DNA from: a virus
IMG/VR virus record: IMGVR_UViG_3300004097_000075
Span: 1-21,025 of that record
Length of the DNA: 21,025 nucleotides
Reading direction: 5' to 3' (one strand)
The notes under the pieces are model-generated. The model made no database searches, was not told the origin of the DNA, and was given only the letters and a program-made list of their open reading frames with translations. Shown here piece after piece: positions 1-17,326 of the stretch. Within the stretch, counting starts at the first letter, position 1; the number at the start of each line of letters is the position of its first letter. The position numbers were made by a program, and so were the translations under genes.

Positions 1-85
1 TGCATTAGTTGTAGCTGGGATTGTATTTAAAAACAACAATCCTACAATGTTAAAAATATTCGAATTAAAACGGTGGAATGATTAA
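1..85 (+). CDS. 3' end of an upstream gene, small membrane-like protein (partial)
   Basis: An open frame enters from the left edge in the frame starting at base 2 and ends with TAA at 83-85, leaving 27 residues. They begin with a hydrophobic stretch (ALVVAGIVF) and end in a polar, basic tail (ELKRWND). The stop overlaps the next start as TAATG, the translational-coupling style used throughout this operon, which supports it as a real gene end. The hydrophobic-then-basic tail could suit a holin or another small membrane protein, but too little is visible to assign a function. Confidence 0.55.
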   Translation, partial: ALVVAGIVFKNNNPTMLKIFELKRWND

Positions 86-1234: not shown

Positions 1235-1641
1235 TGCCGAATAACATGTATGAACCTAACAGGGGGTATAATCCATTTGCACCAGCAAGTTATGGTTATA
1301 GTCCTGATAGTCCCCAAGATCTTTTACCGCAAATAAGTACACCCCAAGCAGTCCAATTAGGGACTCCAGAGGAGTCTGTTATGGACAAAGCTACTGGACT
1401 TGCTATGGATAAGGGTTTAAATTATGGAGCTGATAAGGGGACAGAAATGGCAACAAAAGCACTAGCAGGAGGTAAGGGTGGTGCCGAAACTGTTGTTGGT
1501 AAACACATGGCTGCAAACTCTGTCGGAGCTGCTGGAGCTGCTGGTACTACAGGAGCTGTGGCTGGGATAGGGGCTGCTATGGCTCCAGTGTTGCCTGTTA
1601 TAATCGGGGCTATGGCGCTGAAATCTATCTTTAAGAAATAA
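1234..1641 (+). CDS. Small virion-module protein with hydrophobic Ala/Gly-rich C-terminus
   Basis: 135 residues and not recognised by family. The first 50 residues are rich in Pro, Tyr and Asn (for example PNRGYNPFAPASYGY) and probably extended. Residues about 97-135 are an almost uninterrupted Ala/Gly/Val/Ile stretch ending in a basic KSIFKK, compatible with a membrane-inserting hairpin. A small protein with such a tail next to large ejection proteins could help form the channel through which DNA crosses the cell envelope; this is inference. GGAGG lies 6 bases before the ATG, and the start overlaps the previous stop. Confidence 0.5.
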   Translation: MPNNMYEPNRGYNPFAPASYGYSPDSPQDLLPQISTPQAVQLGTPEESVMDKATGLAMDKGLNYGADKGTEMATKALAGGKGGAETVVGKHMAANSVGAAGAAGTTGAVAGIGAAMAPVLPVIIGAMALKSIFKK

Positions 1642-1650
1642 GGAGTTATT

Positions 1651-4287
1651 ATGGCAACACCAAGAGCTTTAGCAATGAAAAGGCTAAGAGAAAGAGAAGA
1701 ACTAGCTAGACAAGCTGCTTTGTTAGGTCAAAGTAAAAATAAAGGTATTATGTCTAACTTAGGCTCTATAGGTCAGTTTATAGCTAATGATAATAATGAT
1801 TTAGATAATTTGTCATTTTCAACTGTAGATGGTTTAAATGCAACTTTTAAAAACAACAGAGTTAAAGATACTACGCCAAAATACAATGTTGGAAGTACAA
1901 ATATTCAGCCCGTGTTTCCTAATTTTGAAGGGGTTACGTCTGATGATCTTGCTGACCCAAATAAGATAATAGATTTTAAACCTACCTCAACAGCTTTAAC
2001 TTCTTTTATTGAAGAAAACTCAGTTGCTCCAAAAGAAAATCCAAGAGTAACCGCTATGAATAGACTTAAAGAGCAGGCAGAGTTAAATGCATTAATTGAA
2101 GAAAATAAAAAATTACAAAGATTTAGAGGAGATTCTTCAAGAATAGCACCAGCTGGTACAGTAATGCAACCTCGTTGGGATGGAAGTGTAGATCAAAATT
2201 TAAACTACAATATGCCTATGGAGGGTCAAGAGTCAGCTAGAGAAGCTGCTACAAGAAATGGAATATCTCAACAGCAATTAGACGATATTATGCTTTATTC
2301 GGGAAATGAAGACCCTACGTTTGACGAAAATTATGTTTACAACATGGGTGTTACAGATGACGGTACTTTCCCAGACTTACCAAAATTAGGTGATGAGGAT
2401 GCCAGTTTTGATGAAAATTATGTTTACAACATGGGTGTTACAGATGACGGTACTTTCCCAGATTTATTATCTCCTCAACCTTTAGACGGTAGTAATGAAT
2501 TAGAAATAGGACCTGAAACTTTTAAATTACCTGAAGACTACGAAGCATTAGACGAGGTAATGGCAGAATTAGAATTAAACAATCCAGATTTAATTAATGA
2601 AAATGCAGAATTTTGGGAAGCAGAAAATAAAGAGCAGGCAGAATTAGATGCAGAGTCAGAAAGAATAGATAACCTTAATTTATTAGATACAGAAGAGGAT
2701 ATAGTATTACCGGTTGATAATGAAAGTTTTGACCCATCATTAGGTGATGATATTGATGCAAATCCTTTAGATAACACTATTGAAAGTAAGATAATACAAG
2801 AGGATAAGGACAACAGAGAGGCTTACATACAACTTAGTAATTCAATGTCTTCTGAAGATTTGGCAGCTCTAGAGAATGAAGTTAGTGATATTAACTCACA
2901 AACAGATGTAGACGGTCAAGAGGTTACAGAGTCTAAACTATCAGACCTCTTTGGATCCCTAAAGGACATTTTTGGAGTAGACAATAAATCACTTCTTAGA
3001 GCAGCAATAAAATACATAGGTGGTCGAGTGTTTGGTCTTTCTTCAGGTAAAGCTGCACAATTTGCTTGGGCAGGTATTGAGGCTGATATGGCTACTGAGG
3101 CTGCTAAAGGAGCAGATGCTAAAGCTTATCAAGCTAACATGGATGAATACGATAAGATGTATGAGTCTGCAATGTCTAGAAAGGATTTTGAAGAAGCTGA
3201 CAGAATACTTCAAAAGATGAACTCACTATCTGGTATTGAAAAATCAGATTCTGAAAAGTTTGATGATAACTTAAGTTACCTTAACAAGAAATACAAAGAA
3301 GCTGAAAAAGCTAAAGATAAAGTTAAAATGTCTCAAATTGCAAAACAACTTAAGAAAATGCAAGCAGCTGGGATCGATGGAACTAAAGCAGATACTTGGA
3401 TGGGATCTGCTGGGATGTATGATAAGAACGGTACATATGTTGTTAAGCAAGCTATGCAAGTTGAGGGTGAAGGTATAAAAATATATGATGAGTCAGATAA
3501 TACATTTAAATTACCATCAAAGCTTGGTTACAGGGATGCAATTAGAACCCCAAGTAGTGATAAAGGGAATGATACATATGCAGTAGATGAAAGAGTTATA
3601 ACAGACCCTGCAGAATACGGAAGATACTCCACTGAGATACCTAACTCTATTGGTGTCTCACCTAAAGGTGTTCCACAATTTGATGAGGGAAGTGGTGATC
3701 TTAATAAAGCAGCTAGTTTCTCTCATACAGCTATTAAGTCGTTTATGCAAATGGAAGACATTCTAGCACACAGTGATGAAGTTAGACAAGAAATATTTAG
3801 CTTACAATCAGAATTTAGAAAATCTATTGCAGACATGCCTTCTGACAGCGCTATGAAAGGTCTTCTAGGTAAGTTTATTAAGAGAAATATGAGTCCTGCT
3901 GCTAAACTTTGGTTTAATGAGATGAACACTCTTGTTACTTCTAAGTTAAGAAGAGAGACAGGAGCTGCTTATAATAAAGAAGAATTAATCACTACAATGA
4001 ATTTCTTCCCTAATGTCACTGACTACCCTGCAAACTTTAATGAGCTAGATGATCAAGGTAAGACAAACGCTCTTCGTTTTATGGATGTAAGAATGAAACA
4101 GGCTGGTAATTGGATTTTGACTAATGCTCAAGGTTTACAAGCTTACGAGTATCTAGAAGGTTTAAAAGGTGGTTTGTTTAGACCTGATGATGAATGGTTG
4201 GATGCTAACAAAGGCATAATGGAATTTTTAGATGCTCAATACAATCCACAGGTAAGCACTTCAACTCAAGCTTTAATTGAACAATAA
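1651..4287 (+). CDS. Large internal virion protein (gp15-like position), with tandem repeat
   Basis: 878 residues, just longer than T7 gp15. The N-terminus is a basic amphipathic helix (PRALAMKRLREREEL, from residue 4) that recurs in variant form at about 131-145 (PRVTAMNRLKEQAEL). Residues 190-420 are strongly acidic and probably disordered, and hold two near-identical 24-residue repeats at 220-243 and 249-272. About 470-575 is helical and coiled-coil-like, with two Lys/Glu-rich helical hairpins. Near residue 765 lies LRRETGAAYNKEEL followed by a Pro-containing turn, a pattern I associate with phage DNA-ejection/structural proteins. No transmembrane segment or lysozyme motif is apparent. AAGGAG precedes the ATG. 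Role in the virion is inferred from size, position and composition. Confidence 0.6.
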   Translation: MATPRALAMKRLREREELARQAALLGQSKNKGIMSNLGSIGQFIANDNNDLDNLSFSTVDGLNATFKNNRVKDTTPKYNVGSTNIQPVFPNFEGVTSDDLADPNKIIDFKPTSTALTSFIEENSVAPKENPRVTAMNRLKEQAELNALIEENKKLQRFRGDSSRIAPAGTVMQPRWDGSVDQNLNYNMPMEGQESAREAATRNGISQQQLDDIMLYSGNEDPTFDENYVYNMGVTDDGTFPDLPKLGDEDASFDENYVYNMGVTDDGTFPDLLSPQPLDGSNELEIGPETFKLPEDYEALDEVMAELELNNPDLINENAEFWEAENKEQAELDAESERIDNLNLLDTEEDIVLPVDNESFDPSLGDDIDANPLDNTIESKIIQEDKDNREAYIQLSNSMSSEDLAALENEVSDINSQTDVDGQEVTESKLSDLFGSLKDIFGVDNKSLLRAAIKYIGGRVFGLSSGKAAQFAWAGIEADMATEAAKGADAKAYQANMDEYDKMYESAMSRKDFEEADRILQKMNSLSGIEKSDSEKFDDNLSYLNKKYKEAEKAKDKVKMSQIAKQLKKMQAAGIDGTKADTWMGSAGMYDKNGTYVVKQAMQVEGEGIKIYDESDNTFKLPSKLGYRDAIRTPSSDKGNDTYAVDERVITDPAEYGRYSTEIPNSIGVSPKGVPQFDEGSGDLNKAASFSHTAIKSFMQMEDILAHSDEVRQEIFSLQSEFRKSIADMPSDSAMKGLLGKFIKRNMSPAAKLWFNEMNTLVTSKLRRETGAAYNKEELITTMNFFPNVTDYPANFNELDDQGKTNALRFMDVRMKQAGNWILTNAQGLQAYEYLEGLKGGLFRPDDEWLDANKGIMEFLDAQYNPQVSTSTQALIEQ
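2308..2466 (+). repeat. Two-copy direct repeat inside the 878-residue virion gene
   Basis: A unit of about 72 bases at 2308-2379 recurs at 2395-2466, a period of 87 bases or 29 codons. The core of 60 bases (2320-2379 against 2407-2466) differs at only two silent positions, Asp GAC/GAT and GAC/GAT near the end. Both units encode ED[PA][TS]FDENYVYNMG then VTDDGTFPDL. Near-identity at synonymous sites points to a recent in-frame duplication. Confidence 0.9.
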
Positions 4288-4298
4288 TAGGAGTTTAA

Positions 4299-6785
4299 AT
4301 GCAATATACAAAAAAACAACTAGAGAATGCTCTGGTTAGAGCTAATGCAGATCCTGTTAAATATGCTGAAAACATAAAAGAGTTAAAAAGATTATTAGCT
4401 AGTGGGGTTTTTAAAGAAGAAAATTTAGATGGTGGTCAAGGGACTTCTGAGTCTAGTTCAGATAGTCTTGTGTTTGACAAGCTTAATGAAGACGAAGCCT
4501 ACAATGAAGCTTTAATGAAATTTTATAGTGGCAAGGCTGGCGGAGCTGTAAATACAATAGATCAAGGTAAGGGTTTTCGTGAAACTGCAACTTTATCAGA
4601 TTATCAAAGTATTGACAGAGATGCCAGTGGAAATATAACAATGTCCCCTGAAGATTTAAAAGAGAAAAGCTTTGAATTGTTTAATAATGCTTTGCTAAAT
4701 GAGGTAAGTTTAGCTAGATTTGCAAATGAGATAAGCTTAATGTCTCCCGAAGAAAGAGATAACTTAGCATATTTGTATGATGTTTATGAAAGAACTGCTA
4801 TAACTGGAGAAGGGTCTAGGTCAGGTTTTGAACAATTTAAAGACGCTGGAAATTTGCTAACTGCCCCAAGTACTTACGCAGGAGGTTTTTTATTAAAAGG
4901 CGCAATGGCTCCTGCTTTAAAAGCGTCCTTTAGTGCTGCAATGAAAAAGATGTTAAAAGTTGGTGCCAAGGGATTGTCTTCAGCTGAGACAACAGCTTTA
5001 AAAGAAGGAAGCAAAGCACTAGCTGTAAGGTCAGGGAAAGTTGGTGCTGGATATGCCGCTGGGTTTGATGCAGCACAACAAACTGGTGTAGAGATGCAGT
5101 TAGATCCAGAGCAAGAATATTCTTTTGGCAGGACAGCAGCAATGGGAGCTGTAGGTTATGGGGCTGGTAGATTTTTACCACAAGCTTTAAAAGGAGCCGG
5201 TGTAGTTGTAAAGGCTCCGGGAACTTTAATTAATAAAGCTATTCCGGGAGTAGGTAAAGCTATTGCAAGACCATTTCAAACTGTTGGGGGTGGCTTTGTT
5301 AAAGCTTTTGGAGGAGGACCAGCTGCTAAAACACACGTTGGTAAGGAAGGTCAAGAAATTTTTGGATCTACTGGTGATACACAATACGCTGATATTGTAA
5401 ATACTGAAATTAAAAAAGCATCTAAACAAGCCTTTAATAATTTTAAAGAAGCTTTTAGAAACTTAGGTGATTTACATATAAAATTTGGACCTAAAAATGA
5501 TCCTTATGATTTTAACGCTGGGTTACGTTTAGGTGATGAGACTAATTCTTTTGGAGTACCCACACCTGAACAACAATTGAAAGAGTCTAGAGAGTCTGTT
5601 TTTAATTTAATTAATTATATCCAAAGTGTAGAGGCTGGTGTTCCCGGCTGGGGTGGTTTAAAAAATATTACGTTTTTATTAAAAAGAGGTGATATTACAC
5701 CGACTGAAGCTTTAAGAAAAATAAGATCTAAAGTAGGTGCAGCTACAGTTGATAATAGTGAAAAAACAAAAGAATATCGTGATGTTTTTATAAGATTAAA
5801 TGATGAAGTTAGAAAAGTTATGGCTGACGCTGCCAAAAGATCTAAAAAGAAAGATCCTTTTGAAAAATTAGACCGTTTATATCAAGAATTTGTTGAAGCA
5901 AATAATCATAAAAAAATGCAGCAATTAATGGATAAAGACTCTTCTAAAGCAATTAATCAATTAAGATCAGTTGCTACAGGCGCTAAAAACAATTATAAAA
6001 TATTAGAAGAGCATCAAGATAGATTAGAAATTATTAATAAATTTTCTTCTTCGAAAGTTGAAGAAGGATACATTGATAATGTAACAGGTGTTGAATTAAA
6101 AACTGGAGATGTGATACCTAATGAAACTTTAAAACCTGCTATGGATGATGCAATGCGAGGGGTTGTTGGTCATCAAATGTTTCAAGGTGAAAACGCTGCT
6201 GGTTTTAAATCATACTTAAGTACAGATCAAGGTAAAAAAGTCCTTAAAGATTTATTTCCAGATCAACGACAAACTATTGATAGGTTTTCTAAAATATTAA
6301 CTGCAGCAGCAGATAAGACCTCTATGGGTATGTACGCCATGAGAGTTTTAACAGCCGGGTTAATTGGTGTTGGAACTTTAGGTGTATCTACGGGAGGTGC
6401 TTTTACATCTGGTGCAGCTATCGTTGTTATTGAAAGTTTATTAAAATCTCCTTGGTATGGAAAACAAGCTGCAAAAGTGTTTGCAAGGGACAAAACAAAA
6501 AGTGCATCTGAAGCATTTAAATTAGTTAAAATGATGGAAAACAAAGGGTACACTAAAGAACAAGCAAATAAAACTTTAGAACTTATGCTTGGTTCTGCAG
6601 TATGGGCTAGTTTTCTTCAAGATAAAGAAAATAGAGACGGTATAAAAGATGCAGGTTCAAAAATAGGAGACATAGCCCTCAGAGGTATTGAAGAATATGC
6701 ACTACCAACTTTAAAATCTACTGATGAAAAATATTTTCAACCTGTATTTGATACAGTATCAGATATGTTAATAAGGGATAATTAG
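4299..6785 (+). CDS. Large internal virion / ejection protein with membrane-active segments
   Basis: 828 residues. Glycine- and alanine-rich hydrophobic stretches lie at about residues 184-212, 277-325 (GAVGYGAGRFLPQALKGAG is typical) and 681-716 near the C-terminus; the rest is charged and mostly helical. Repeated Gly/Ala stretches in a large soluble-looking protein are typical of podovirus ejection proteins that insert into the host membrane to form a DNA channel. I find no lytic transglycosylase motif such as that at the N-terminus of T7 gp16. It lies between the 878-residue protein and the RNA polymerase, with TAGGAG before its ATG and 11 bases from the previous stop. Function is inferred from composition and place; homology is not recognised. 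Confidence 0.6.
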   Translation: MQYTKKQLENALVRANADPVKYAENIKELKRLLASGVFKEENLDGGQGTSESSSDSLVFDKLNEDEAYNEALMKFYSGKAGGAVNTIDQGKGFRETATLSDYQSIDRDASGNITMSPEDLKEKSFELFNNALLNEVSLARFANEISLMSPEERDNLAYLYDVYERTAITGEGSRSGFEQFKDAGNLLTAPSTYAGGFLLKGAMAPALKASFSAAMKKMLKVGAKGLSSAETTALKEGSKALAVRSGKVGAGYAAGFDAAQQTGVEMQLDPEQEYSFGRTAAMGAVGYGAGRFLPQALKGAGVVVKAPGTLINKAIPGVGKAIARPFQTVGGGFVKAFGGGPAAKTHVGKEGQEIFGSTGDTQYADIVNTEIKKASKQAFNNFKEAFRNLGDLHIKFGPKNDPYDFNAGLRLGDETNSFGVPTPEQQLKESRESVFNLINYIQSVEAGVPGWGGLKNITFLLKRGDITPTEALRKIRSKVGAATVDNSEKTKEYRDVFIRLNDEVRKVMADAAKRSKKKDPFEKLDRLYQEFVEANNHKKMQQLMDKDSSKAINQLRSVATGAKNNYKILEEHQDRLEIINKFSSSKVEEGYIDNVTGVELKTGDVIPNETLKPAMDDAMRGVVGHQMFQGENAAGFKSYLSTDQGKKVLKDLFPDQRQTIDRFSKILTAAADKTSMGMYAMRVLTAGLIGVGTLGVSTGGAFTSGAAIVVIESLLKSPWYGKQAAKVFARDKTKSASEAFKLVKMMENKGYTKEQANKTLELMLGSAVWASFLQDKENRDGIKDAGSKIGDIALRGIEEYALPTLKSTDEKYFQPVFDTVSDMLIRDN

Positions 6786-6793
6786 GAGTACAA

Positions 6794-9700
6794 ATGAACT
6801 TAACGGCATTTACAAATCAATTGTCTAAAGTATTAACTAGAAGACTTTCCAAAGCTATTATTGATGGAAACAAACGTGAAGTAGGTACTATTAGGAAGTT
6901 ACTGGACGACCCCCAAGGTCTCCAGAAGAAAGTAGAAGATATTCAAAAAAGACATCAACAAGGTGAATCATTTGACCAACAAAAAATTAATAATGACATA
7001 GATAAATCTTTCCCTGAGCCTGAAAAGACTTCTTTATCAGGTTCTCAAGTTGTTGAAAATCTTAAAGTAATGGGAACTGATCAAAGTCAAGATGCTGGTA
7101 AATATGCTGACACTAATGGTTTTGTCCCTAACACGTTAAGAGAAATACAAGAGCATGATAGGTTTGATATTGAGACCGTAGATGTAGACGATATTTATAA
7201 AAGTGCAGGTGCTGAGGATTTTAGGATGATTGCCGATAGTCCCAACCCTAGAGCGGACACAGTGCAATCTGAACCTACGGTACCGCCTATTATAGATAAA
7301 AATGGTAAAGTACTAGATGGCAACAATAGACTCCACATAGCTAAGTTAAATAAAGAAGATAGTACTTCTGATGGTAAAGTTGAGATCCTCCGGGGGTCAT
7401 CAACTTTGCAAGATAATGCAAATAATGAAGTTATAGATAGGATTGGATCTTTTGCAGAAAACCTGAAAACTAAAATTGAAATGGATAGACCATCTGTAGC
7501 AACTAAGGTTGGTACTAATGTAGTTGCAAGTCTTAAAAATGTTGCAAACATGCCTCAAAGTGGGTCTTTCATAAAGTCTTTTGCAAAAGCAACTAATAAT
7601 TTTGATCCTAAAATTGTAGACGATGAACTTTATGTTGGTATTGCAATGGATCTTTTAAGGGCTGTAAAAGATAACAAAGGTGGTCGTCCCGGTAAAAAAC
7701 TTACTGAGGTAGACAAATCTGGTCAAACACATGTTGTTACTGCTAAAAATATGAACGAGCTTGCTAAGGATGTAGGCGAGTCTGTAGCTGATCGGATTTT
7801 AAGTAAAGGAGGTGCTCCTTTAAAACCTTGGGAGCAAAGGTACTTAGGGTCTATGATTCTTCAACTTGGTAGGGGTAACTTTGGGGGTAAGTTTTCTGAC
7901 ACTGACTTAGATATTCCTCATTTGTTTAAAGAAAGTACACAACCTAAAGATGTCGGCAAAGGTAAATTTAAAGATCAAAAAATTCTAGAGACTTCTGATT
8001 ATTTTAATACTTGGTATAAAACTAGAAATGGTGGTCATGGGGGAAAATATTGGTTTGATTTATTCCCTCATAATAGATCAGAAAAAGCTGCAAGTCCTAG
8101 ATACCACGGTCCTTGGAAAGTAGATGAAAATCTTAATGTTATAGAAGCACCAAGAGGTGTCGATAAATCTTTAAGGATTGGTGGTGGTAAAGGAGATACT
8201 TCACAAACTAAAGATAATTTAGAAATATTAAATATTTTAGGAAAGCAAAAATTAGGAGTAGATTCAGACAAGTTTGAATATTTTCAACATTTAGGTAGGA
8301 TGGGTGTTTTTAAAGAAGCCGGTATAGATAAAGGATCTTTAGAAATAGCTATTGCGAGAAATAAACTAGACGAAGTAGATGTTCAAGAGCTTACACGTTA
8401 CTACGATAATTTAAAACTTTTAAAAAAGAAGTACAATGATTTAGAAGACGTTGAAAGAATAAAAGAAAATAAACCACCTTTGACCCCATTAGAAAGAGAA
8501 AATTTTGGAAAAGGAGAAAACATAAGAAATGAAATATATCAAAACTATTATAAACCAGCTCCTAAGAAAAATAAAAACAATCCAAACCCTTCTCCGACTG
8601 GAGAAAAAATAGACCTTGACAACAGTGTAGGTGGCTTTGAGTCAGGTAATTCTAATTTTCTAAAAGCTTTACAAATGGCTTCTTTAGACACTTCTAACTT
8701 ATCTGAATTAAATACTATACAAAGAGCTAAGTTTAATAGAATTACAACAGAGATTAAAGAAAGATTTAGAATGGACCCTGAAGGTGCTGAGGTGTACATG
8801 CCTTATTTTCTTGATAGTAGAACTAGAGTTTATCCTTTAGACTCCTCTGGGGCAAATCTTATTAGTGGACTAGGTAGGTTTGGGTATTCAGCTGAAAGAG
8901 CAATGGCTAAACCTATAACTTACAACGATGAGTCTTTTTATGCAATTGTAGATGACTTTCTTAGGTTTGAAGATAACCCTATTGTACAAACAAGGGTAAA
9001 AGGTGATGAGTTAGGTATGAAGAGTACTGCCTCAACTGCCAAAGCTAAAAGAGTATTAAGTGGTAATTACCCTAAAGAAATTGAATTAAAAAATATAATT
9101 CTTCGTGGTACTGGTAAAGGGGTAGCTACAGATCTAGACAGGATGAAATATTGGAAAACTTTTGAAAGTGAGTATTTAACAAGAGCTGAAAATTTATTAA
9201 AAGCAATAGACGCTTCTAAAACAGCTAAAAACTCTGATGAAAGATCAAAAATCTGGAGTAAGTGGTTAAGTAAAAATTCTTGGATAAGAAACATTAAAGA
9301 TCAAGAAGCTTATGTAGCAAATTTGACTGAGATAGGTCGCATAAAAAGAGCTTACGATGGTAATCCTCAAAAAGGAAGTATAGGGGCGTATCCTCAAAAT
9401 AACTCTCATTACTCAACACACTTAATGGAATTAGACGCTTCTGCTTCTGGGTCTCAAGTGTTAGGTGCACAATATAATGATTTAAAACTTCTTGAGTCTG
9501 TTAATGTTATTGTTCCAAAAGAAGGTAAACCTAGAGGTCTCTTAACTAAAGAAGAGATGGATATGGTTCTTGAGGGTGTTGATAACAATGCTGTTGCTAG
9601 AGATTTGTATGTAGAGGTAAAAGTGCATTATGGTAAGAAATTTACCCAAAAAATGACAGAGCTTGAACAAACAAATCCACAATTAGCTCAAATTTATAAA

Positions 9701-10813
9701 GAGCTTACAGAAAGGTATATACAAGTAGGAAGAGGTACAACCAAACCTATAGTCATGAAAGTTCCTTACGGTGCTGGTATGGCTAGGCTTAAAAAGACTA
9801 TGGCATCTTTAATAAGTGGAAAAGATAGGATTCAAATAATGAAAGACTATCAAGGAAGAGTTGAAGATCCTACAACTTTAGTTAAAGATTTTGTAGATTT
9901 TCATTGGGACTCTATGGAGACTTCTTTACAGAATTCCTTAGAAACTCAATACGAGTTTAGAAGATTTTCATCTATTATTGGATCTCTTTACACAGACCTA
10001 GCAGGGTCTTCAGGTAGTCCAAGAAAACCTTACTTGGTTAAGTCACCTACTGGCGGTGAGACTGACTTTACTGTTTTTGCAACTCAAACTGTTCAAACAA
10101 AGGAAGAGACAAGTTTAAGACAATTTCCAAGTTTCGAACAAAAACTTAGAAAAAAGGGTGTTAATAAAGATGGTAGTCCAAAAATGGGGGCTGGTCTTAC
10201 TAAAGTTTATACAACTAGTAAAGTCCCAATGGACCCTAATGATCCAGAAACTATTAAGTTGGTTACTCCGAATAAAAATACCCCAGCTGACACGGTTAAA
10301 AATTTAGAAAAGCGAGGTATTAATTCTTCTAATTTAGAAATGTTTGCAGTAGATGGTAAGATGGTTCAGGAGTTTCCTTTTGCTGGTGGTGGTTCTAAAA
10401 CAATGGCTTCAGCTTTAGCACCTAATGCTGTACACAGTGTAGATGCCGCTTATCTAAGAGAACTTGTTAAAGCTTTACATAAAGAAGGTATTCCAGTTTA
10501 CGTTGTACATGATGCTTTCTTTGTGCTTGCTCCTGATATGAAAAAGACTAAGCAAATAGCTGGTAATGTAATGCTTGAAATGCATAACAATTATAACTTA
10601 AGGGAAGAAATGGTTAAAGGTTTAGCAAGAGCATTAGATATGCCTTTTGATGATGTGCTAAGACAGGTTGATGATATAATGGCAAACCCAACTGCTAAAC
10701 AACAAGCTGATGGAATAAGACCTTACCCTAATGGGTCTTTAGCAAATAAATCAGAAGGACCATTAACAGTCCCTGAAGGATATACAACTGAAAACGTACT
10801 AGTAGGAGGTTAA
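6794..10813 (+). CDS. Probable virion-associated T7-type single-subunit RNA polymerase, with ParB-like N-terminal domain
   Basis: 1339 residues, against 883 for T7 RNA polymerase. The C-terminal half carries its catalytic core. Motif A is FLDSRTRVYP, with D674 matching T7 D537. DASASGSQ at 881-888 matches the T7 DGSCSGIQ segment. Motif B is R-G-T-T-K-x-x-V-M-x-x-x-Y-G, with R980, K984 and Y992 matching T7 R627, K631 and Y639. Then come APNAVHS and motif C VHDAFF, with H1239 and D1240 matching H811 and D812. The polymerase core spans about 610-1310. The N-terminal 600 residues are not T7-like; about 150-205 resembles a ParB/Srx-type fold (VLDGNNRLHIAKL, D175-R179), and 560-600 is a Lys/Asn/Pro linker. 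The gene is last of the large genes in the ejection-protein operon, so packaging in the virion is likely but inferred. GGAG precedes the ATG by 6 bases. Confidence 0.85.
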   Translation: MNLTAFTNQLSKVLTRRLSKAIIDGNKREVGTIRKLLDDPQGLQKKVEDIQKRHQQGESFDQQKINNDIDKSFPEPEKTSLSGSQVVENLKVMGTDQSQDAGKYADTNGFVPNTLREIQEHDRFDIETVDVDDIYKSAGAEDFRMIADSPNPRADTVQSEPTVPPIIDKNGKVLDGNNRLHIAKLNKEDSTSDGKVEILRGSSTLQDNANNEVIDRIGSFAENLKTKIEMDRPSVATKVGTNVVASLKNVANMPQSGSFIKSFAKATNNFDPKIVDDELYVGIAMDLLRAVKDNKGGRPGKKLTEVDKSGQTHVVTAKNMNELAKDVGESVADRILSKGGAPLKPWEQRYLGSMILQLGRGNFGGKFSDTDLDIPHLFKESTQPKDVGKGKFKDQKILETSDYFNTWYKTRNGGHGGKYWFDLFPHNRSEKAASPRYHGPWKVDENLNVIEAPRGVDKSLRIGGGKGDTSQTKDNLEILNILGKQKLGVDSDKFEYFQHLGRMGVFKEAGIDKGSLEIAIARNKLDEVDVQELTRYYDNLKLLKKKYNDLEDVERIKENKPPLTPLERENFGKGENIRNEIYQNYYKPAPKKNKNNPNPSPTGEKIDLDNSVGGFESGNSNFLKALQMASLDTSNLSELNTIQRAKFNRITTEIKERFRMDPEGAEVYMPYFLDSRTRVYPLDSSGANLISGLGRFGYSAERAMAKPITYNDESFYAIVDDFLRFEDNPIVQTRVKGDELGMKSTASTAKAKRVLSGNYPKEIELKNIILRGTGKGVATDLDRMKYWKTFESEYLTRAENLLKAIDASKTAKNSDERSKIWSKWLSKNSWIRNIKDQEAYVANLTEIGRIKRAYDGNPQKGSIGAYPQNNSHYSTHLMELDASASGSQVLGAQYNDLKLLESVNVIVPKEGKPRGLLTKEEMDMVLEGVDNNAVARDLYVEVKVHYGKKFTQKMTELEQTNPQLAQIYKELTERYIQVGRGTTKPIVMKVPYGAGMARLKKTMASLISGKDRIQIMKDYQGRVEDPTTLVKDFVDFHWDSMETSLQNSLETQYEFRRFSSIIGSLYTDLAGSSGSPRKPYLVKSPTGGETDFTVFATQTVQTKEETSLRQFPSFEQKLRKKGVNKDGSPKMGAGLTKVYTTSKVPMDPNDPETIKLVTPNKNTPADTVKNLEKRGINSSNLEMFAVDGKMVQEFPFAGGGSKTMASALAPNAVHSVDAAYLRELVKALHKEGIPVYVVHDAFFVLAPDMKKTKQIAGNVMLEMHNNYNLREEMVKGLARALDMPFDDVLRQVDDIMANPTAKQQADGIRPYPNGSLANKSEGPLTVPEGYTTENVLVGG

Positions 10814-10814
10814 T

Positions 10815-11054
10815 ATGGCAAAAATGTTTAGAGATCATAATATATTATCTGGTATGGGTATAACAGATATAGAGCTATTAAAAGAACACGGTGGACCTGA
10901 GAAGTATGCAGGTACAAATAAGTGTAATACTTGGATGATTAACAACGAGTATAAAGAAAATTTAGCCGCTGGTATACCTGTTCAAGAGTGTAATGCTTTA
11001 AGAAATAAAGCTCAAAGAACTGTAGCTGAAGTAAGACGACAAAGAGGCTACTGA
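10815..11054 (+). CDS. Hypothetical protein, last gene of the virion operon
   Basis: 79 residues, not recognised. It is polar and mostly helical with a basic C-terminal helix (RNKAQRTVAEVRRQRGY). Two cysteines (near residues 37 and 60) do not form a metal motif. GGAGG stands just before the polymerase stop and 6 bases before this ATG, with only one base between the genes, so it is coupled to the polymerase. The bidirectional terminator follows its stop. It could be a small virion or assembly factor; nothing visible decides. Confidence 0.7.
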   Translation: MAKMFRDHNILSGMGITDIELLKEHGGPEKYAGTNKCNTWMINNEYKENLAAGIPVQECNALRNKAQRTVAEVRRQRGY

Positions 11055-11063
11055 CCGCAAGCG

Positions 11064-11117
11064 AAAAAAAAGGTCGCAAAAAGACATTGATTGTCCAATT
11101 TGCGACCTTAATTTTTC
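11064..11117. terminator. Bidirectional intrinsic terminator between convergent operons
   Basis: A perfect 11-bp inverted repeat pairs 11070-11080 (AAGGTCGCAAA) with 11099-11109. A second 4-bp helix (GACA 11083-11086 with TGTC 11092-11095) can stack inside it. On the + strand a T-rich tract follows (TTAATTTTTC), and on the - strand the eight As at 11064-11071 become a run of Us. It lies just after the last + gene and just after the last - gene, so it can end both transcripts. Confidence 0.92.
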
Positions 11118-11329
11118 TACGACTTACTATCTGTAACTATCTCAGGAACCTCTTTAGCTTTCTTATCATCCTTTTCAAAAGGACCATTCTTAGCCTGTAA
11201 TAAAAACCCAATAAGATTATTAAGTTCTTTATTATCTAAAGGAACATCTTCTACTTCATAGATAGTAGTATTGACAACTGGCGATGTTACATCAGTTGTT
11301 TGTATAGTTACTTTTGCCATTACTTCCAT
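11117..11329 (-). CDS. Hypothetical protein, last gene of the replication operon
   Basis: 70 residues, not recognised. The first half is rich in Val and Thr and probably beta-stranded (VTIQTTDVTSPVVNTTIYEV). A short helix follows (about 33-47), then a charged Lys/Glu tail. The ATG lies 2 bases after the endonuclease I stop; a weak AGAG site in the end of that gene would serve it. An in-frame ATG three codons later is an alternative start. The gene ends directly at the terminator hairpin. Confidence 0.65.
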   Translation of the reverse strand: MEVMAKVTIQTTDVTSPVVNTTIYEVEDVPLDNKELNNLIGFLLQAKNGPFEKDDKKAKEVPEIVTDSKS

Positions 11330-11331
11330 AG

Positions 11332-11739
11332 TTATTTCTCTTTTAAAATTTTAGTTATAGTATTCTCCGTAAACCATCTAAAATTATTTTTAGATGCCCA
11401 CTCACCGTGTGTACACTTAGTTCCATCTTTTCTTACCTTTGCTCTAGGCATAGGCGTTTTATGGTTATAGAAAAGAAAAACTAACTCCGTACCAAAAGGA
11501 AGAGCGTCTCTAATAAAGAGATACTTACGAGCTTCTGCAGAATCCATGAATCTACCTTTGGCTTCAACCAGTATATCATCTGTTTTAAAATCAGGATGAT
11601 AGTGATGATCAACAGTGTAGGGTATCTTGTCGGGATGATATTCACAAGACGATAATATACCGTCTCTTAGCTCACCTTCCCATTTAGAGTCTGCATTTCT
11701 TACTTTAGTTTTCCAACGATTATTAGGCTTATATCCCAT
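11332..11739 (-). CDS. Endonuclease I, Holliday-junction resolvase (T7 gp3-like)
   Basis: 135 residues, near the 149 of T7 gp3. This family cuts four-way junctions and branched DNA, helping break down host DNA and untangle replicating phage DNA before packaging. Visible matches: KWEGEL (E21/E23, the first acidic position), HHYHPDF (D50) and ILVEAKG (E59 and K61), corresponding to E20, D55, E65 and K67 of T7 endonuclease I. A later KCTHGEWASKNNFRWF matches the conserved segment near the end. The T7 enzyme is a domain-swapped dimer; I expect the same here. TGGAG stands 8 bases before the ATG, at the end of the upstream small gene. Confidence 0.9.
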   Translation of the reverse strand: MGYKPNNRWKTKVRNADSKWEGELRDGILSSCEYHPDKIPYTVDHHYHPDFKTDDILVEAKGRFMDSAEARKYLFIRDALPFGTELVFLFYNHKTPMPRAKVRKDGTKCTHGEWASKNNFRWFTENTITKILKEK

Positions 11740-11742
11740 AAA

Positions 11743-11940
11743 TCACTCCAGTTTTTCCCCATCCTCATCTAAACCTAGATGTTGCATTGTCATGCTTATT
11801 ATAGACGAATGGCACCACTCACAGAAAGTAACTGGGGTCATGCCAAAATAACCTTGGACACCACCACAATCGGGATCGTAATCACTGCTACATATAGAGC
11901 ATTGATCTTTTGGAATAAAAGCGTTGTTTATTTTCTCCAA
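11743..11940 (-). CDS. Small zinc-binding-like protein (TTG start)
   Basis: About 65 residues with a CSIC pair near the N-terminus and a CEWC pair about 25 residues later, plus an extra Cys (DPDCGG) between them. This is the C-x2-C ... C-x2-C pattern of a zinc ribbon or treble-clef finger. The function is not recognised; a nucleic-acid-binding accessory role would be plausible. No ATG is available upstream of the cysteines. The TTG at 11940 has GGAGG 5 bases before it and is my choice; the TTG at 11952 is possible but has no clear site. The start lies 13 bases inside the end of the preceding small gene. Confidence 0.65.
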   Translation of the reverse strand: MEKINNAFIPKDQCSICSSDYDPDCGGVQGYFGMTPVTFCEWCHSSIISMTMQHLGLDEDGEKLE

Positions 11941-12059
11941 TCTGACCTCCAAAGTCTTGGATTGAGTTTCTTTTTTTTGTTCTTTAACTCTTGGTAAAAC
12001 TTAGAAGTCTCATCCATTTGAACGAGACCCCAAGTTTTTTTGCCGGGAGTGTTACTCAC
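11928..12059 (-). CDS. Small basic protein, 43 residues (GTG start)
   Basis: A short frame filling the gap between the holin-like gene and the zinc-finger-like gene. Read from GTG at 12059 it gives MSNTPGKKTWGLVQMDETSK and continues with a Lys-rich helix (ELKNKKKKLNPRLWRSDWRK). The tail is rich in Trp, Arg and Lys. A stop codon lies three codons upstream of the GTG. An ATG at 12017 would give 29 residues. The ribosome site is weak (GGGG, only 2 bases from the GTG), so the evidence is mainly gap filling, coupled overlap with the next gene and protein-like composition. Function unknown. Confidence 0.5.
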   Translation of the reverse strand: MSNTPGKKTWGLVQMDETSKFYQELKNKKKKLNPRLWRSDWRK

Positions 12060-12064
12060 TACCC

Positions 12065-12307
12065 CTATTTAGATAATTCATTCGTTATGTCTTTATCTAG
12101 CAACTTCCAGATTATACCAGCGGCAATTAAGCCTGCTAATCCAGCGTTACCTAAAGTCCAGACAATATTAAGTATAGAACCAATTACATCGCCAGTAAGG
12201 AATGCTACCTTCTGTCCGAATATAACTTGCAGTACAATTGATAAGCTTATTAACTTAATACCTACATCAATTGCCGCATCGGCTCCGTTCTTTATTTTAT
12301 CTAACAT
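12065..12307 (-). CDS. Holin-like small membrane protein
   Basis: 80 residues. An amphipathic N-terminal helix (residues 1-14) is followed by hydrophobic stretches at about 15-30 and 34-69, the second long enough for one or two further passes, and a short charged tail (KLLDKDITNELSK). Size and layout resemble phage holins, which form the membrane lesions that time lysis; T7 gp17.5 has 67 residues. There is no sequence motif that proves this. A strong AAGGAG stands 6 bases before the ATG. No endolysin gene lies beside it in this window, so the assignment stays tentative. Alternative: another small inner-membrane protein acting on the host. Confidence 0.55.
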   Translation of the reverse strand: MLDKIKNGADAAIDVGIKLISLSIVLQVIFGQKVAFLTGDVIGSILNIVWTLGNAGLAGLIAAGIIWKLLDKDITNELSK

Positions 12308-12324
12308 TTTAACTCCTTTCGTTA

Positions 12325-12747
12325 TTAAACATCACTATGCTTTTTTGCATAGTACATGAGCCCCTCAATCTTGCTAGGGCTCTCCATGAGAAGTCCAAGT
12401 GCAGTGTTACAGTGATGACACAATAGACCCCTGACCTTACCAGTTTGGTGACAATGATCTACAAACAACTTATGATCATCATCTAAACCATACTGGCAAT
12501 TCTCATTGGCGCAAGTACCTCCCTGCTCCTCAATAATCTTTTCTTTTTCCTCAACAGAAAGATTATACCTCCACTTATCCATATAGCCGGGGTTAGCTTC
12601 TTTGAAAGATTTGTTATATTTACTTCTACAATCTTTACAAATAGTACGACAACTAGGGTTAGTAGTGTCTAACTGACTCTTGCTAAAATGGAAAGATTCT
12701 TTTGAATCCCCACAACTGCTACAAACTAGAATGTCTGGTTCGGACAT
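12325..12747 (-). CDS. Endonuclease VII-like HNH nuclease
   Basis: 140 residues. The C-terminal half has the hallmark of the recombination endonuclease VII family: DHCHQTGKVRGLLC, then HHCNTALGLL. The first His pairs form the HNH active site, and CANENC with LLCHHC form the structural zinc site. The N-terminal 50 residues hold two more Cys pairs (CSSC and CKDC), a zinc-ribbon-like extension also seen in phage and environmental members of this family. Its role would be cleavage of branched DNA or nicking. The ATG directly follows the stop of the small lipoprotein gene. This window thus has two junction-type nucleases, with endonuclease I further along the same operon. Confidence 0.88.
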   Translation of the reverse strand: MSEPDILVCSSCGDSKESFHFSKSQLDTTNPSCRTICKDCRSKYNKSFKEANPGYMDKWRYNLSVEEKEKIIEEQGGTCANENCQYGLDDDHKLFVDHCHQTGKVRGLLCHHCNTALGLLMESPSKIEGLMYYAKKHSDV

Positions 12748-12879
12748 TTAATTCCAACCAGAGCATCCTAATGAATCGACAGGTGTACATTCAAGCCTCT
12801 TGGCTTCATCAATCTTTGCCTCAAAAACAGCGCAACTTGCTAAAAAAATAGCTAGAACACAAACTAATAATAATTTCAT
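12748..12879 (-). CDS. Tiny predicted lipoprotein (43 residues), possible lysis or surface protein
   Basis: The frame starts at ATG 12879, overlapping the reductase stop as ATGA, and AAGGAG lies 5 bases before it, an excellent ribosome site. The product begins MKLLLVCVLAIFLASC, a textbook lipoprotein signal peptide with an LASC lipobox, so the predicted mature protein is 28 residues starting at Cys16. It has two further cysteines (C31 and C39) and ends SGWN. The family is not recognised. A short lipoprotein close to a holin-like gene could be an outer-membrane spanin, but it lacks the proline-rich stretch of many Rz1 proteins and no inner-membrane partner is seen. It could also protect the infected cell from other phages. 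Confidence 0.75.
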   Translation of the reverse strand: MKLLLVCVLAIFLASCAVFEAKIDEAKRLECTPVDSLGCSGWN

Positions 12880-14840
12880 TCCATCTCCTTTTCCTCTTCA
12901 ACTAAGTCAACCATTTCACATATACTTCCTGTACATGCCAATGTTTTATTGCCAATTGTTGTGTCTGTTAACTCGTACTCACTTATTAAGTCCCAGTCTA
13001 CAGATGAAGGCATTACCTTAGCTAATTTATCGTACTCTTTCTTAGTACAATCTTCATAAGGTGCTTGTTGATACGAGTGATCTGAATGAGGTAAGAAAGA
13101 TACACCACTTACTTCATCAAAATGTTTATAGACCCATGAGCCTACTTCCATCCACTCGTGTTCTCTGACACTTACTGTGACACTTGGTTTGTGCTCACAA
13201 TAGTATCTTTGGTAAGTTAGCCACAACTCTAACTGTTCTATTGCACTTCTATCGTTTCTAAGGATTGCACCTTTTGGAGCCTTAGTAGGAAATGTAAACA
13301 CCTTAACACTGTCAGGCTTCATTACGTCAGCCTCACATGGTATGCCTTGGTCTTCCATTAACTGTGCAATAGGGTCTTTTGCATCTGCTCTTACCCTACG
13401 ATAATAATAGTCGTTGTGTCTAGTGTGGATACCAGACGCTGAATCGACTAGTTGACTTACTGTACCGCTGGGTTTAATAGCAGTTGTTGCTGTAGCCTGA
13501 CTAATTCCTAATAAGCCTGACCAATCTTTGTTGACCTTAACCGTTTCTTTTCTAAGGTCTGATAGAAAGTCTGATAAATTTCTTTTACCGTAATAACCTC
13601 TATCTGTATTACTACCGTTCATAAATGAATTGTCCATAATTCCAGTAAGAGATACACCTAGTAGTGCTTCCTCTTCTGTATTGTGAACCCATTTAGGTCG
13701 TAATCTTTTAATGTTTGTAAGAGAGGCTTGGAATGTTCCAAGTATCGTAGCCAATCTAACTTTTCTAAGTATGTCTTTTTGAGTATCTTCTGCCCTGATA
13801 ACCACTTCTGTTAAATTACAGAACTGACCGTCTCTGAGAATAATCTCACTACAAGGGTTACAGCCAAAGTCATGGTCAGGGTCTCTTCTACCTATAGACG
13901 CTACTTGTTTAATAGCGGCTTCTCTATTAAAGATACCACGCTCACCTGATTTTGACTCATACAGGGATGTCCACTCTTTCATAAATATACCCATGTCAGG
14001 TTTTTCTGTATAACACACGCTGTTATTACTAAGAGCCATCTCTGGTGTATCTGACCACCATTGACCACTCTTGGCATTACGCATGCGCTCATCAGTCAAA
14101 TTACTTAGAGAAATCAATGCACTACGTCTAACACCACCAACGACAACAACCTCTGCAATCTTACACATCATACGGTGACACTCGTAACTAGTAAGTTTCC
14201 TACCACCAGCGTCCTTAAAAATGTTCGTAGCAAAATGAAACAAGTCGATCAAAGGCTCTGGACCACTGGCTCTACCGCCAAATGTTTTAAGCCTAGATCC
14301 TTTTGGTCTTACTTTTGAAAAGTCCCACTTAGGCATTTCACCGTCATAGAGATAGGTAATAAGTTTACGGAAAGCTGATTGCCATCCTTCTTTGCTATCT
14401 TGGACTACTATGGTGTCTTCTACATCTACTTGTTCTTCAGGAACTTCAGGTAGTTTATTTACATGTTGCCTCTCTACACTAAAGCCCACACCAGTACCGT
14501 GCATAAGTATAAACAGACATTCGTCAAATGCTTTAGGGTGGTCTACGCTTAAGTAAGCGCAATTGTAACCTGCTATGTGGTTCTTAGCTAAGGCAGGTCC
14601 TGCAGTCATTAGCGCTCTCATGCTAGGCATTACATCTAAATTGAGAACAGCTTCTTCAAGAATCTTACGAGTCTTGGGAACTAGTTCTTGTTCTGTATTG
14701 TCTTTTAAGTGTTGCTCCATAAAGTCAAAGTATCGAGCTACAGTCTCTTCCCACGTCTCTCTCCTGTTTTTCTCAGGTAGCCACCTTGCATACCTGCTTA
14801 GGGCTATAAAATTTTGATAATCTGTTGCTAATTTTTTCAT
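12876..14840 (-). CDS. Class II (adenosylcobalamin-dependent) ribonucleotide reductase, monomeric RTPR type
   Basis: 654 residues, shorter than the 739 of the Lactobacillus leichmannii enzyme. It reduces ribonucleoside triphosphates to dNTPs for phage replication, using coenzyme B12 to generate a thiyl radical. All five expected cysteines are visible: C94 (GYNCAYLSV) and C341 (FCNL) as the reducing pair, C330 in NPCSEII as the radical site with E332 following, and C636 and C641 (ACTGSIC) near the C-terminus for reactivation. The C330-C341 spacing matches C408-C419 of the Lactobacillus enzyme. GGVRRSA (about 235-241) and PSGTVSQL are further family segments. No NrdB-like partner is needed or seen. 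GAGG precedes the ATG. Confidence 0.93.
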   Translation of the reverse strand: MKKLATDYQNFIALSRYARWLPEKNRRETWEETVARYFDFMEQHLKDNTEQELVPKTRKILEEAVLNLDVMPSMRALMTAGPALAKNHIAGYNCAYLSVDHPKAFDECLFILMHGTGVGFSVERQHVNKLPEVPEEQVDVEDTIVVQDSKEGWQSAFRKLITYLYDGEMPKWDFSKVRPKGSRLKTFGGRASGPEPLIDLFHFATNIFKDAGGRKLTSYECHRMMCKIAEVVVVGGVRRSALISLSNLTDERMRNAKSGQWWSDTPEMALSNNSVCYTEKPDMGIFMKEWTSLYESKSGERGIFNREAAIKQVASIGRRDPDHDFGCNPCSEIILRDGQFCNLTEVVIRAEDTQKDILRKVRLATILGTFQASLTNIKRLRPKWVHNTEEEALLGVSLTGIMDNSFMNGSNTDRGYYGKRNLSDFLSDLRKETVKVNKDWSGLLGISQATATTAIKPSGTVSQLVDSASGIHTRHNDYYYRRVRADAKDPIAQLMEDQGIPCEADVMKPDSVKVFTFPTKAPKGAILRNDRSAIEQLELWLTYQRYYCEHKPSVTVSVREHEWMEVGSWVYKHFDEVSGVSFLPHSDHSYQQAPYEDCTKKEYDKLAKVMPSSVDWDLISEYELTDTTIGNKTLACTGSICEMVDLVEEEKEME

Positions 14841-14868
14841 GTAATTTCCTCTAATAATTGTGTTTATT

Positions 14869-15123
14869 TTAATCTTCTTTTGCTTCAGGTAATAGCCCTA
14901 GCTTTTTAAGTTTATCAAAATATCTTCTATGGACATCTGAGTACATTCTAAATCCTTCGTAGTACTCAGTGTCCTCTTCTATCAAACTATGGAATTTTGT
15001 TAATGCCTCAGCTAACTGCATTACATCTTTACCTTTGTTTGACTCTTCCTCTAGACTTTCTTTTATACAAGATCTAAGAAGTCTATTCTCAGTGTTAAGT
15101 AATTGATAGTTAATGGATGTCAT
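14869..15123 (-). CDS. Small helical hypothetical protein between polymerase and reductase
   Basis: 84 residues, not recognised. It is almost wholly helical and charged, with a Leu/Ile-rich heptad-like N-terminal half (LLNTENRLLRSCIKESLEEE) suggesting a coiled coil, and a C-terminal segment rich in Tyr and Lys. Its ATG lies 14 bases inside the end of the polymerase gene, so it is probably translated by coupling. Position between polymerase and reductase hints at a small replication accessory, but nothing confirms this. Confidence 0.65.
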   Translation of the reverse strand: MTSINYQLLNTENRLLRSCIKESLEEESNKGKDVMQLAEALTKFHSLIEEDTEYYEGFRMYSDVHRRYFDKLKKLGLLPEAKED

Positions 15124-17062
15124 ACCAAGTTGCTCCTATCTTTGAATTGCCAGACATTGGACAATCAAAGCCTAACCTTTGACCTGCAATCTTAGCAGAC
15201 TCCTCTAATATTTTAGATAGTTTGTCTGCATCTTTTCTGTCACATTCAAAGTTCTGCTCATCATGCATAATGGCTAACAACTTACAATTTATATTATTTT
15301 TCTTAATAAGACCATCCGATACAATCGCCCACTCTTTAGCTAAAATTGCTTCATTACCTTGTAACAAGTAATTAAGAAGTTTATGTTCAGAGTCAACCTG
15401 TATTTTCCTACCATCTTGAGCGGTTATAAATCTGTTGCCAGACCTATTGAACTCGTTTATCAACTTATCTTGTAATTTCTTAAGAAGCGGAAACGTCCTT
15501 AAAAATTTAGTCTTAAGCACAGTCCCTTCTTTAGACTTACCACCAACAATAGTTCCAAGTTTTGCGGCACTTGCGCCAAACAGAAACCCGTATATAAAAG
15601 TCTTTGCTTGACTTCTATCTTTCAACCCTGCGGCTTTTTGGTTGACAGTGTGTACATCTGTACCGTCTTCTTCTTTGCCTGTAGTAACTGTTTCTACATA
15701 CCTAGGGTCTCCCATTGCTGCGGCTAAAAGTCTTAACTGGGCAGATGCTAAATCACAACCAACCAGTACTTTGTCTTTTGGTGCTATAAAGATACTTCTC
15801 ATTTCTTTACCAAAGACAGCTTTTGCTCCGGGAACATTCACTAGATTTCTATGTGACATTCTTCCAGTAGCTGTACCTAGTGTAAAAGGCACACACTCTA
15901 ATCTACCATCATCTCTACAAACACCAAGCCAACCTCTATCTTTATTCTTTTGGTTTTGCAATGTGTTTCTTCTATGTTGATAGACAGCGTGTAAAGCTAT
16001 ATCTTGTCCAAGATCACCTTGTATAGAATTGTAGGAATCTTCTGTTAACTTCGCAGAAGTTCTGACTAAACTACCATCTTCGGCTCTCTTAGTGTTCCAT
16101 TCTGTAGGTTTCCAACCGTGTTTAAACAGCAATTTCTTGACCTCTGCAGTCTGTGTTAGCTTTGCAGGGGTAATCTCAACTCTACAATATGGACCATTTA
16201 TTTGTAAACCTTTTGTATTATTTATGTAATCAATACACTCATAATCACCAAACCAGTCTTGTATGTGTTTATGAAGTTTACCTGCCTTAGTCCATTTGGG
16301 GACTATCGGCTTTCTTAACTGCTTACCTCCTACTAGCCCTTTCTGGTAGTCAACACCGTTAGTGTTCATTATCTCATTACACTCAGAGTTGCTGACCCAA
16401 AAGTCAGGGCACTTGAGTATAGGTGGCATTAAAGGTTCAATCTTATCTCTAAGTTTGTCAATCTCTTCAGTCAAAAACTTTATGTGTTTGTCAGCAAGTT
16501 CTTTGTCAACTAACCAACCGTTCTTTACTTGTTCAGAACTTATTTTAGCTATCCTGAACTCACGATTTAAAACTTCTTTTGGTACCCCAGATTCTTTAAA
16601 CTCCCTAAGTAAAGAGTGGAACACCCTAACATTGATTAGGACGTCTTGCTCACACCTGTTTAACATAGCTTGTTCAAATCTTAGCCACTGCTCTTGACGT
16701 GGTTTTAAAACACCAAAGTGCTCTCCCCACATCTCAAGACCATGTCTACCTTTGTATCTACCAAGAGTCCTGTTAAAGTTCAGCAATTGGCTCATAAGAA
16801 AAGTATCAACAAGCCTAGCTTTTGTTTTAAAGTTAAAAAGTTTTTTCAGTAGAGGTATGTCATACATGATTATGTTATGACCTATTAGTTCGTCAGCATT
16901 TGCAAGCAACTCAAGACCCTCCTCTAAAGAAGGGCAATCGTCACTGTCATTTGAAAAAGTAATCGTATCCTTACTTATTATGTCGTAAGTAGAGATACAC
17001 CAAACAGTAGTAGCGTCATTAATAAAACCATTTGCCTCTACATCAAAAACTAATTTCTTCAT
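15110..17062 (-). CDS. T7-type family A DNA polymerase with 3'-5' exonuclease domain
   Basis: 650 residues from the chosen start (T7 gp5 has 704). Exonuclease domain: FDVEANG (D7, E9) as Exo I, HNIIMYDIP as Exo II, and RCEQD (D140) as Exo III. Polymerase domain: motif A GCDLASAQLRLL (D437), motif B RSQAKTFIYGFLFG with Tyr at the T7 Y526 position, and motif C MHDEQNF (D601). The end GATWYDIH resembles T7 GPNWAICH. The segment CRVEITP through HGWKPTE also follows T7. The Exo III tyrosine (YxxxD) is replaced by Arg136. The start at 17062 overlaps the upstream stop as ATGA; an ATG two codons earlier (17068) is also possible. It would act with the primase-helicase and ssDNA-binding protein encoded upstream. 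Confidence 0.95.
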   Translation of the reverse strand: MKKLVFDVEANGFINDATTVWCISTYDIISKDTITFSNDSDDCPSLEEGLELLANADELIGHNIIMYDIPLLKKLFNFKTKARLVDTFLMSQLLNFNRTLGRYKGRHGLEMWGEHFGVLKPRQEQWLRFEQAMLNRCEQDVLINVRVFHSLLREFKESGVPKEVLNREFRIAKISSEQVKNGWLVDKELADKHIKFLTEEIDKLRDKIEPLMPPILKCPDFWVSNSECNEIMNTNGVDYQKGLVGGKQLRKPIVPKWTKAGKLHKHIQDWFGDYECIDYINNTKGLQINGPYCRVEITPAKLTQTAEVKKLLFKHGWKPTEWNTKRAEDGSLVRTSAKLTEDSYNSIQGDLGQDIALHAVYQHRRNTLQNQKNKDRGWLGVCRDDGRLECVPFTLGTATGRMSHRNLVNVPGAKAVFGKEMRSIFIAPKDKVLVGCDLASAQLRLLAAAMGDPRYVETVTTGKEEDGTDVHTVNQKAAGLKDRSQAKTFIYGFLFGASAAKLGTIVGGKSKEGTVLKTKFLRTFPLLKKLQDKLINEFNRSGNRFITAQDGRKIQVDSEHKLLNYLLQGNEAILAKEWAIVSDGLIKKNNINCKLLAIMHDEQNFECDRKDADKLSKILEESAKIAGQRLGFDCPMSGNSKIGATWYDIH

Positions 17063-17307
17063 GACCATTTACCAAATAAAAGTTTAAATTGCTCTGGTGT
17101 TAAGTCTTTGTATGTGTCTTCAAAATAGTTCTTATGACCTCTTTCTTTTTTCATAAAAACAGTAGGTTTAGCCAAATCCTCATAGTTTCGAGTAGTTTGT
17201 AACCTAACCCACGTTGTCTTTTTACTAACCCCAGTCAATGCCATTATCTCATCTATTGTGAGAACTCTGCCATCATCTAGAGTGTAGAATTTTCTCTCAG
17301 TACTCAT
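17059..17307 (-). CDS. Small HTH-like protein between primase-helicase and polymerase
   Basis: 82 residues from the start at 17307, chosen because GGAGGAGG lies 4 bases before it; a longer frame upstream to 17376 runs back into the helicase gene and has no such site. Residues about 13-38 (LTIDEIMALTGVSKKTTWVR) read like a helix-turn-helix (first helix, VSKKT turn, recognition helix). The second half is basic and aromatic (HKNYFEDTYKDL). It may bind DNA, either as a regulator or as a replication accessory, but the family is not recognised. Its TGA overlaps the polymerase ATG. Confidence 0.7.
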   Translation of the reverse strand: MSTERKFYTLDDGRVLTIDEIMALTGVSKKTTWVRLQTTRNYEDLAKPTVFMKKERGHKNYFEDTYKDLTPEQFKLLFGKWS

Positions 17308-17326
17308 AATCCTCCTCCATAGTGAA

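Follow-up and report, generated by a model that had tools for sequence, protein, structure and literature searches.

A giant T7-type RNA polymerase encoded beside the ejection proteins of an uncultured podovirus is a predicted virion RNA polymerase

The window analyzed here, meaning the whole 21-kb stretch at its full length, is a fragment of an uncultured virus in which virion genes run rightward (85–11054) and replication genes leftward (11117–20932), the two modules converging. Leftward genes include those encoding an endonuclease, endonuclease VII, ribonucleotide reductase, a family A DNA polymerase, a primase-helicase, a single-stranded-DNA-binding protein, and an exonuclease. On the plus strand, the virion operon encodes a 238-aa protein (518–1234) that is perhaps gp14-like, going by its position only, and a small 135-aa virion protein with a hydrophobic segment and no cysteine (1234–1641). 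Next come two large cysteine-free ejection proteins: one of 878 aa with a net charge of -66 (1651–4287), probably gp15-like given the gene order, and one of 828 aa with hydrophobic segments at residues ~676–711 (4299–6785), a probable inner-membrane (gp16-like) component. The gene for a giant, 1339-aa RNA polymerase (RNAP) follows (6794–10813), its polymerase core (residues ~607–1339; 8612–10810) delimited by structure alignment to T7 and mitochondrial RNAPs and by profile alignment. Gaps between this gene and its neighbors in the ejection module are 2 to 11 nt, and a Shine-Dalgarno-like sequence precedes each large gene. The giant gene had been described as the last of three giant genes in the virion operon; it is the last large one, but a 79-aa ORF directly behind it (10815–11054, plus strand), kept in all relatives with a giant polymerase, means that it is not the operon's last. 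At the right end, on the minus strand, lie the last 15 codons and stop of a conventional T7-type RNAP (20978–21025) and, just behind that gene, TGACATCTTATAGAGGAT (20955–20972). The gene for the 878-aa ejection protein also holds a 74-nt tandem duplication (2306–2379 and 2393–2466, 89% identical, spacing 87).

Related loci were collected by searching with the window's DNA polymerase (80 viral loci), and giant-polymerase loci by searching with an alignment of giant polymerases (31 loci). The best isolate match was a Zobellviridae phage, at 36% identity and with the same convergent layout, a tentative placement that reflects layout and DNA polymerase, with terminase, capsid, and portal lying outside the window. 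This phage had no match to the giant polymerase, and isolate phages in general yielded nothing beyond short polymerase matches to it or its relatives. No giant polymerase was found in the prokaryote genome contigs scanned, isolates yielded no homologs of the 878-aa or 828-aa protein, and a literature search of incomplete coverage returned no description of the family. Among relatives, the ribonucleotide reductase region of two loci (L097 9154–11890; L048 8853–11984) carries, as identified by eye, genes of 593 aa and 317 aa versus the window's single 654-aa gene, and these two arrangements suggest that the gene has been exchanged within the group.

The giant polymerase is encoded by a single open frame (6794–10813, plus strand). 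It matched the Pfam RNA_pol family (E 1.2e-11; 44.5 bits against a curated cut-off of 22) and PHROG RNA polymerase families (4.7e-21), the latter also matched by all 12 aligned relatives. Homology to T7 RNAP starts near residue 607 to 625 and the core extends over ~607–1338, in agreement with the claim that ~600 residues without a T7 match precede it. When aligned to T7 RNAP, D881 (in ELDASASGSQ) corresponded to D537, R980, K984, and Y992 to R627, K631, and Y639, and H1239 and D1240 to H811 and D812 (T7 numbering), while DSRTRVYP at 674 aligned with T7 DWRGRVYA. D881, R980, K984, Y992, H1239, and D1240 were invariant in 12 homologs, across lineages down to ~30% identity, and D674 was at least 90% conserved. 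Alignment, family matches, and conservation thus confirmed the catalytic positions reported in the original prediction, which had also proposed comparing the structure with T7 and N4 polymerases. A predicted model of moderate quality (mean pLDDT 66, core mostly 70 to 94) adopted a T7-type fold; its best Foldseek match was T7 RNAP (E 2.5e-10), and Z scores were ~12 to 20 against T7 and mitochondrial RNAPs over ~385 to 453 residues, 17.9 against N4 RNAPII, and 11.0 against N4 vRNAP. As read from sequence and model, the core of a single-subunit RNA polymerase of T7 type is complete in the giant protein, and its activity is predicted.

Phylogenetically, giant polymerases formed one clade (100/100 support) on a long stem (3.4 changes per column), which excluded both the RNAPs of Autographiviridae and the conventional enzymes that these phages also encode. 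A recent duplication of the second RNAP as the origin of the giant one was unsupported, given the separate clade and long stem. That stem, and the strong divergence from other RNAPs that it represents, is what might be expected had the polymerase died catalytically and persisted as a structural ejection protein, yet the six residues that stayed invariant down to ~30% identity make this highly improbable.

The remainder of the protein is less conserved. Complete members of the family are 1037 to 1342 aa in length; residues 1 to ~240 are variable and differ between subgroups, and residues ~245–600 are conserved within the giant-polymerase family only and are a candidate promoter-binding part. 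A Pfam search of the first 659 residues returned no match, the model of the first ~640 residues was too poor to use (pLDDT 51), and a ParB-like appearance of residues 130–205 was unsupported. One subgroup carries an N-terminal domain of ~240 residues (L097 2594–6607, residues 170–406) with 48 to 51% identity to segments of proteins from cyanophages and other uncultured phages, among them a "large polyvalent protein" by annotation (cyanophage, 48%) and a "RelA/SpoT" protein; proteins of the large polyvalent type have been described as injected (PMC5512222), which speaks for packaging. In one subgroup the giant polymerase has an N-terminal motif in common with the ejection protein encoded before it, a motif not visible in the window.

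Consistent with its place beside the two large ejection-protein genes, near the end of the virion operon, the giant polymerase lacks cysteine, as do all 27 distinct members of the family (27/27; 19,890 residues). Among non-virion proteins of the window, ribonucleotide reductase and DNA polymerase have 13 cysteines each, the primase-helicase nine, and the exonuclease three; at these rates the chance of finding none in 1339 aa is 6e-11, and at the rate of the second RNAP it is 3e-6. Conventional RNAPs of the same clade have 5 to 8 cysteines and full-length ordinary phage RNAPs 5 to 15. For comparison, cysteine was absent from N4 gp50, gp51, and gp52, from the polymerase regions of eight further Schitoviridae vRNAPs, from T7 gp15 and gp16 (T7 RNAP has 12), and from the large ejection proteins of the podoviruses Aer_P220, 1.208.B, SWcel-C56, and S28-C10, whose RNAPs (encoded by three of the four) have 9 to 14 cysteines and whose tail-tube proteins have 4 to 6. 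Exceptions among ejection proteins were T7 gp14, with one cysteine, and one sister-clade homolog of the 828-aa protein, with two. This mark of ejection proteins is a correlate drawn from the present comparison, neither a proof of ejection nor a published criterion; a plausible cause of the avoidance is that such proteins pass a narrow channel while partly unfolded.

Given its operon position and the absence of cysteine across the family, as in N4 gp50 to gp52 and T7 gp15 and gp16, we predict that virions carry the giant polymerase and eject it, a conclusion that is well supported, though only indirectly. The original prediction of a capsid-carried, injected enzyme is to that extent partly upheld. 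Late-operon position alone would also allow a polymerase that acts only in the cell producing it, in late transcription, its place among virion genes being incidental, and in Autographiviridae of the SWcel-C56 type the RNAP gene does lie immediately ahead of the virion genes. However, RNAPs of that type have 8 to 14 cysteines versus none in the giant family, and the giant gene sits in the ejection module fused to ~600 further residues, so we consider a purely late role improbable.

The giant gene had been proposed to occupy the place of T7 gene 16, a reading that the sister phages disfavor. In L048, L049, and L052, the last large gene among those for virion proteins encodes the homolog of the 828-aa protein, no giant polymerase is present, and a conventional RNAP is. 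Since the module ends without it in these phages, the giant polymerase appears to have been either gained by or lost from an otherwise shared ejection module, and, because the 828-aa protein also has hydrophobic segments, that protein corresponds better to gp16, which would make the polymerase extra cargo. The 828-aa gene rather than the giant polymerase gene is thus more likely to be the gp16-like one.

The conventional polymerase gene, within which the window ends, was recovered complete on a second contig. L005 is 99.97% identical to window positions 13825–21025 over 7.2 kb, continues past the right end of the window, and encodes a 744-aa T7-type RNAP (L005 2446–4680) beside the replication genes. 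Among the contigs searched, nine carry both the giant polymerase and a conventional RNAP of ~740 aa next to the replication genes. A second RNAP gene is therefore not missing from genomes with the giant gene, where the original prediction had proposed to check for the absence of an early one, and the proposed contrast with T7-like phages, which encode their polymerase near the replication genes, does not hold, the phage of the window doing the same. The original prediction had also counted a second complete RNAP gene serving early transcription as evidence against it. The gene exists, but does not refute packaging, because N4 has the same arrangement, its second phage RNAP coexisting with the packaged one (PMC4496689). 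In one relative (G007), the conventional RNAP gene comes after ~11 kb of mostly small genes, a position comparable to that of N4 RNAPII, which sits behind small N4 early genes. As in T7, transcripts made by the host could nevertheless come first and the second polymerase could then serve the early genes, which may thus still depend on host RNAP.

Alternatively, the giant polymerase may be packaged and ejected mainly to internalize DNA, as a motor or clamp, most early RNA coming from host RNAP or from the second polymerase. The presence of a conventional RNAP gene and the company of the ejection proteins are compatible with this; the C-terminal part of T7 gp16 is a cytoplasmic DNA binder that governs entry of the DNA (PMC8954989), and N4 early transcription has been described as drawing the genome in (PMC4496689; PMC12633501). 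Against it, the catalytic residues are invariant, and a motor driven by transcription would still make early RNA, which leaves a difference in emphasis only. We regard a mainly mechanical role as unlikely, and prefer an ejected polymerase that transcribes.

Among known systems, N4 offers the closest parallel. The giant polymerase resembles N4 gp50 as a predicted virion-carried, cysteine-free single-subunit RNAP encoded behind cysteine-free ejection genes; N4, too, has a second phage RNAP that is produced intracellularly, and its vRNAP is the last gene of a late operon meeting a convergent replication module, the giant gene being the last large one in the window. In motif A, both have a glutamate two residues before the catalytic aspartate, within ExDAxxxG in the giant polymerase and ExDGxxxG in Schitoviridae. 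However, N4 gp50 is ~3500 aa long with its polymerase in the middle, versus 1037 to 1342 aa and a C-terminal polymerase in the giant family, and the second RNAP of N4 is a heterodimer, unlike the single-chain T7-type enzyme of the window's phage. Schitoviridae vRNAPs are defined by the motif ExDGxxxG and a length of 2842 to 3820 aa (PMC10654107); the motif was found in all nine Schitoviridae examined and not in the giant polymerase. Profile comparison (hhalign) yielded 99.1% and 5e-19 against T7 RNAPs and 26.8% and 7e-4 against vRNAPs, with motifs A and B in register, and structural Z scores were 11.0 for N4 vRNAP versus 15 to 20 for T7 and mitochondrial RNAPs. Lacking the motif, too short, and closer in profile to T7, the giant polymerase is by sequence not assigned to the N4 vRNAP family and is much nearer to T7-type RNAPs.

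Catalytic motifs and core fold are common to the giant polymerase and the RNAPs of T7 and other Autographiviridae, from which it differs in its virion-operon location, absence of cysteine, long unmatched N-terminal part, and separate clade. It resembles T7 gp15 and gp16 in size, absence of cysteine, and operon place behind the tail genes, but carries an RNA polymerase and has no hydrophobic segment. Thermus phage P23-45 likewise has a virion protein fused to an RNAP and a second, non-virion RNAP (PMC10770324). The P23-45 enzyme, however, is homologous to cellular RNAPs and lies in the tape measure protein of a long tail, unlike the T7-type giant polymerase.

An exact copy of TGACATCTTATAGAGGAT lies at the same place in 15 related loci, and the element, similar by eye to the T7 promoter core, is a candidate T7-type promoter. 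In another subgroup, the T7-like motif TTAYGCGGWYGTATAG precedes early and replication genes, and TTAYGCGGWYGTATAGATATAAA, which resembles a T7-type promoter, occurs ahead of early genes as well as behind the gene for the second RNAP (upstream regions of L122, L082, and L047). Relative G007 carries seven or eight copies of a 50-nt element (L121 12616–16634), in the order AATAAATCAAAG, a GC-rich hairpin (CCCAYY...TGGG) whose stem and loop vary, and TTTTTACTTRTTATT, mostly ~30 nt before the start codons of small early genes. These hairpins are candidate promoters that could equally be terminators, and a scan of viral contigs recovered them only in two near-identical contigs of one lineage. No vRNAP promoter was found with confidence in these loci, hairpins before small early genes occurring in that one lineage only. 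In the early region of one relative, promoters of host type showed no excess (51 versus 44.8 in shuffles, sd 6.3), a count that is uninformative because the DNA is AT-rich.

Outside the window, we also observed repeated RNA-like elements with the core strands of a hammerhead ribozyme in type II order (CGAAAC, hairpin, GUC, hairpin, CUGAUGAG). These were located by CTGATGAG or CTGAAGAG in L122 (53, 3338, 9647), L030 (1330, 3371), L034 (3963), L047 (135, 3117, 8258), and L082 (823 and others). Covariation links the loop of the second hairpin to the tail that follows CUGAUGAG (GTGC/GCAC, GACC/GGTC, GAGTT/AACTC, CCGTT/AACGG), a pattern that would fit a pseudoknot in place of stem II. Rfam returned no match for the window or for five related loci, and the elements of L122 had none even at E 5.

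Taken together, these data are best read as an independent T7-type lineage of virion RNA polymerase, predicted to be packaged and active, that was added behind an existing ejection module. The giant polymerase, the final large protein encoded by the virion operon, would be synthesized late, enter the capsid together with the ejection proteins, and pass into the cell either alongside the DNA or before it. Its C-terminal half would then transcribe the leading end of the genome, which holds small early genes, and it may help to pull the DNA in, before the conventional RNAP, made inside the cell, takes over middle and late genes. We place the probability of a T7-type polymerase that is made late, packaged, ejected, and transcribes the leading early genes until the second RNAP takes over at roughly 70%. 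More tentative, and in our view somewhat doubtful as a whole, is a fuller scenario in which a T7-type RNAP was recruited as virion cargo independently of N4, lost all its cysteines on becoming an ejected protein, and works in relay with the ordinary RNAP from a promoter class of its own, possibly the hairpins of one relative.

To our knowledge, virion-carried single-subunit polymerases are known essentially from N4-like phages. If the reading is true, the existence of another lineage, of T7 type and in small marine-type podoviruses, would mean that the virion-polymerase strategy arose more than once, and would provide a much smaller enzyme for study (~1040 to 1340 aa versus 3500). Related phages that share the ejection module and second RNAP, some having and others lacking the giant polymerase, offer a natural comparison, and lack of cysteine, as a feature that marks ejected proteins, may serve as a sequence test for other candidate virion enzymes.
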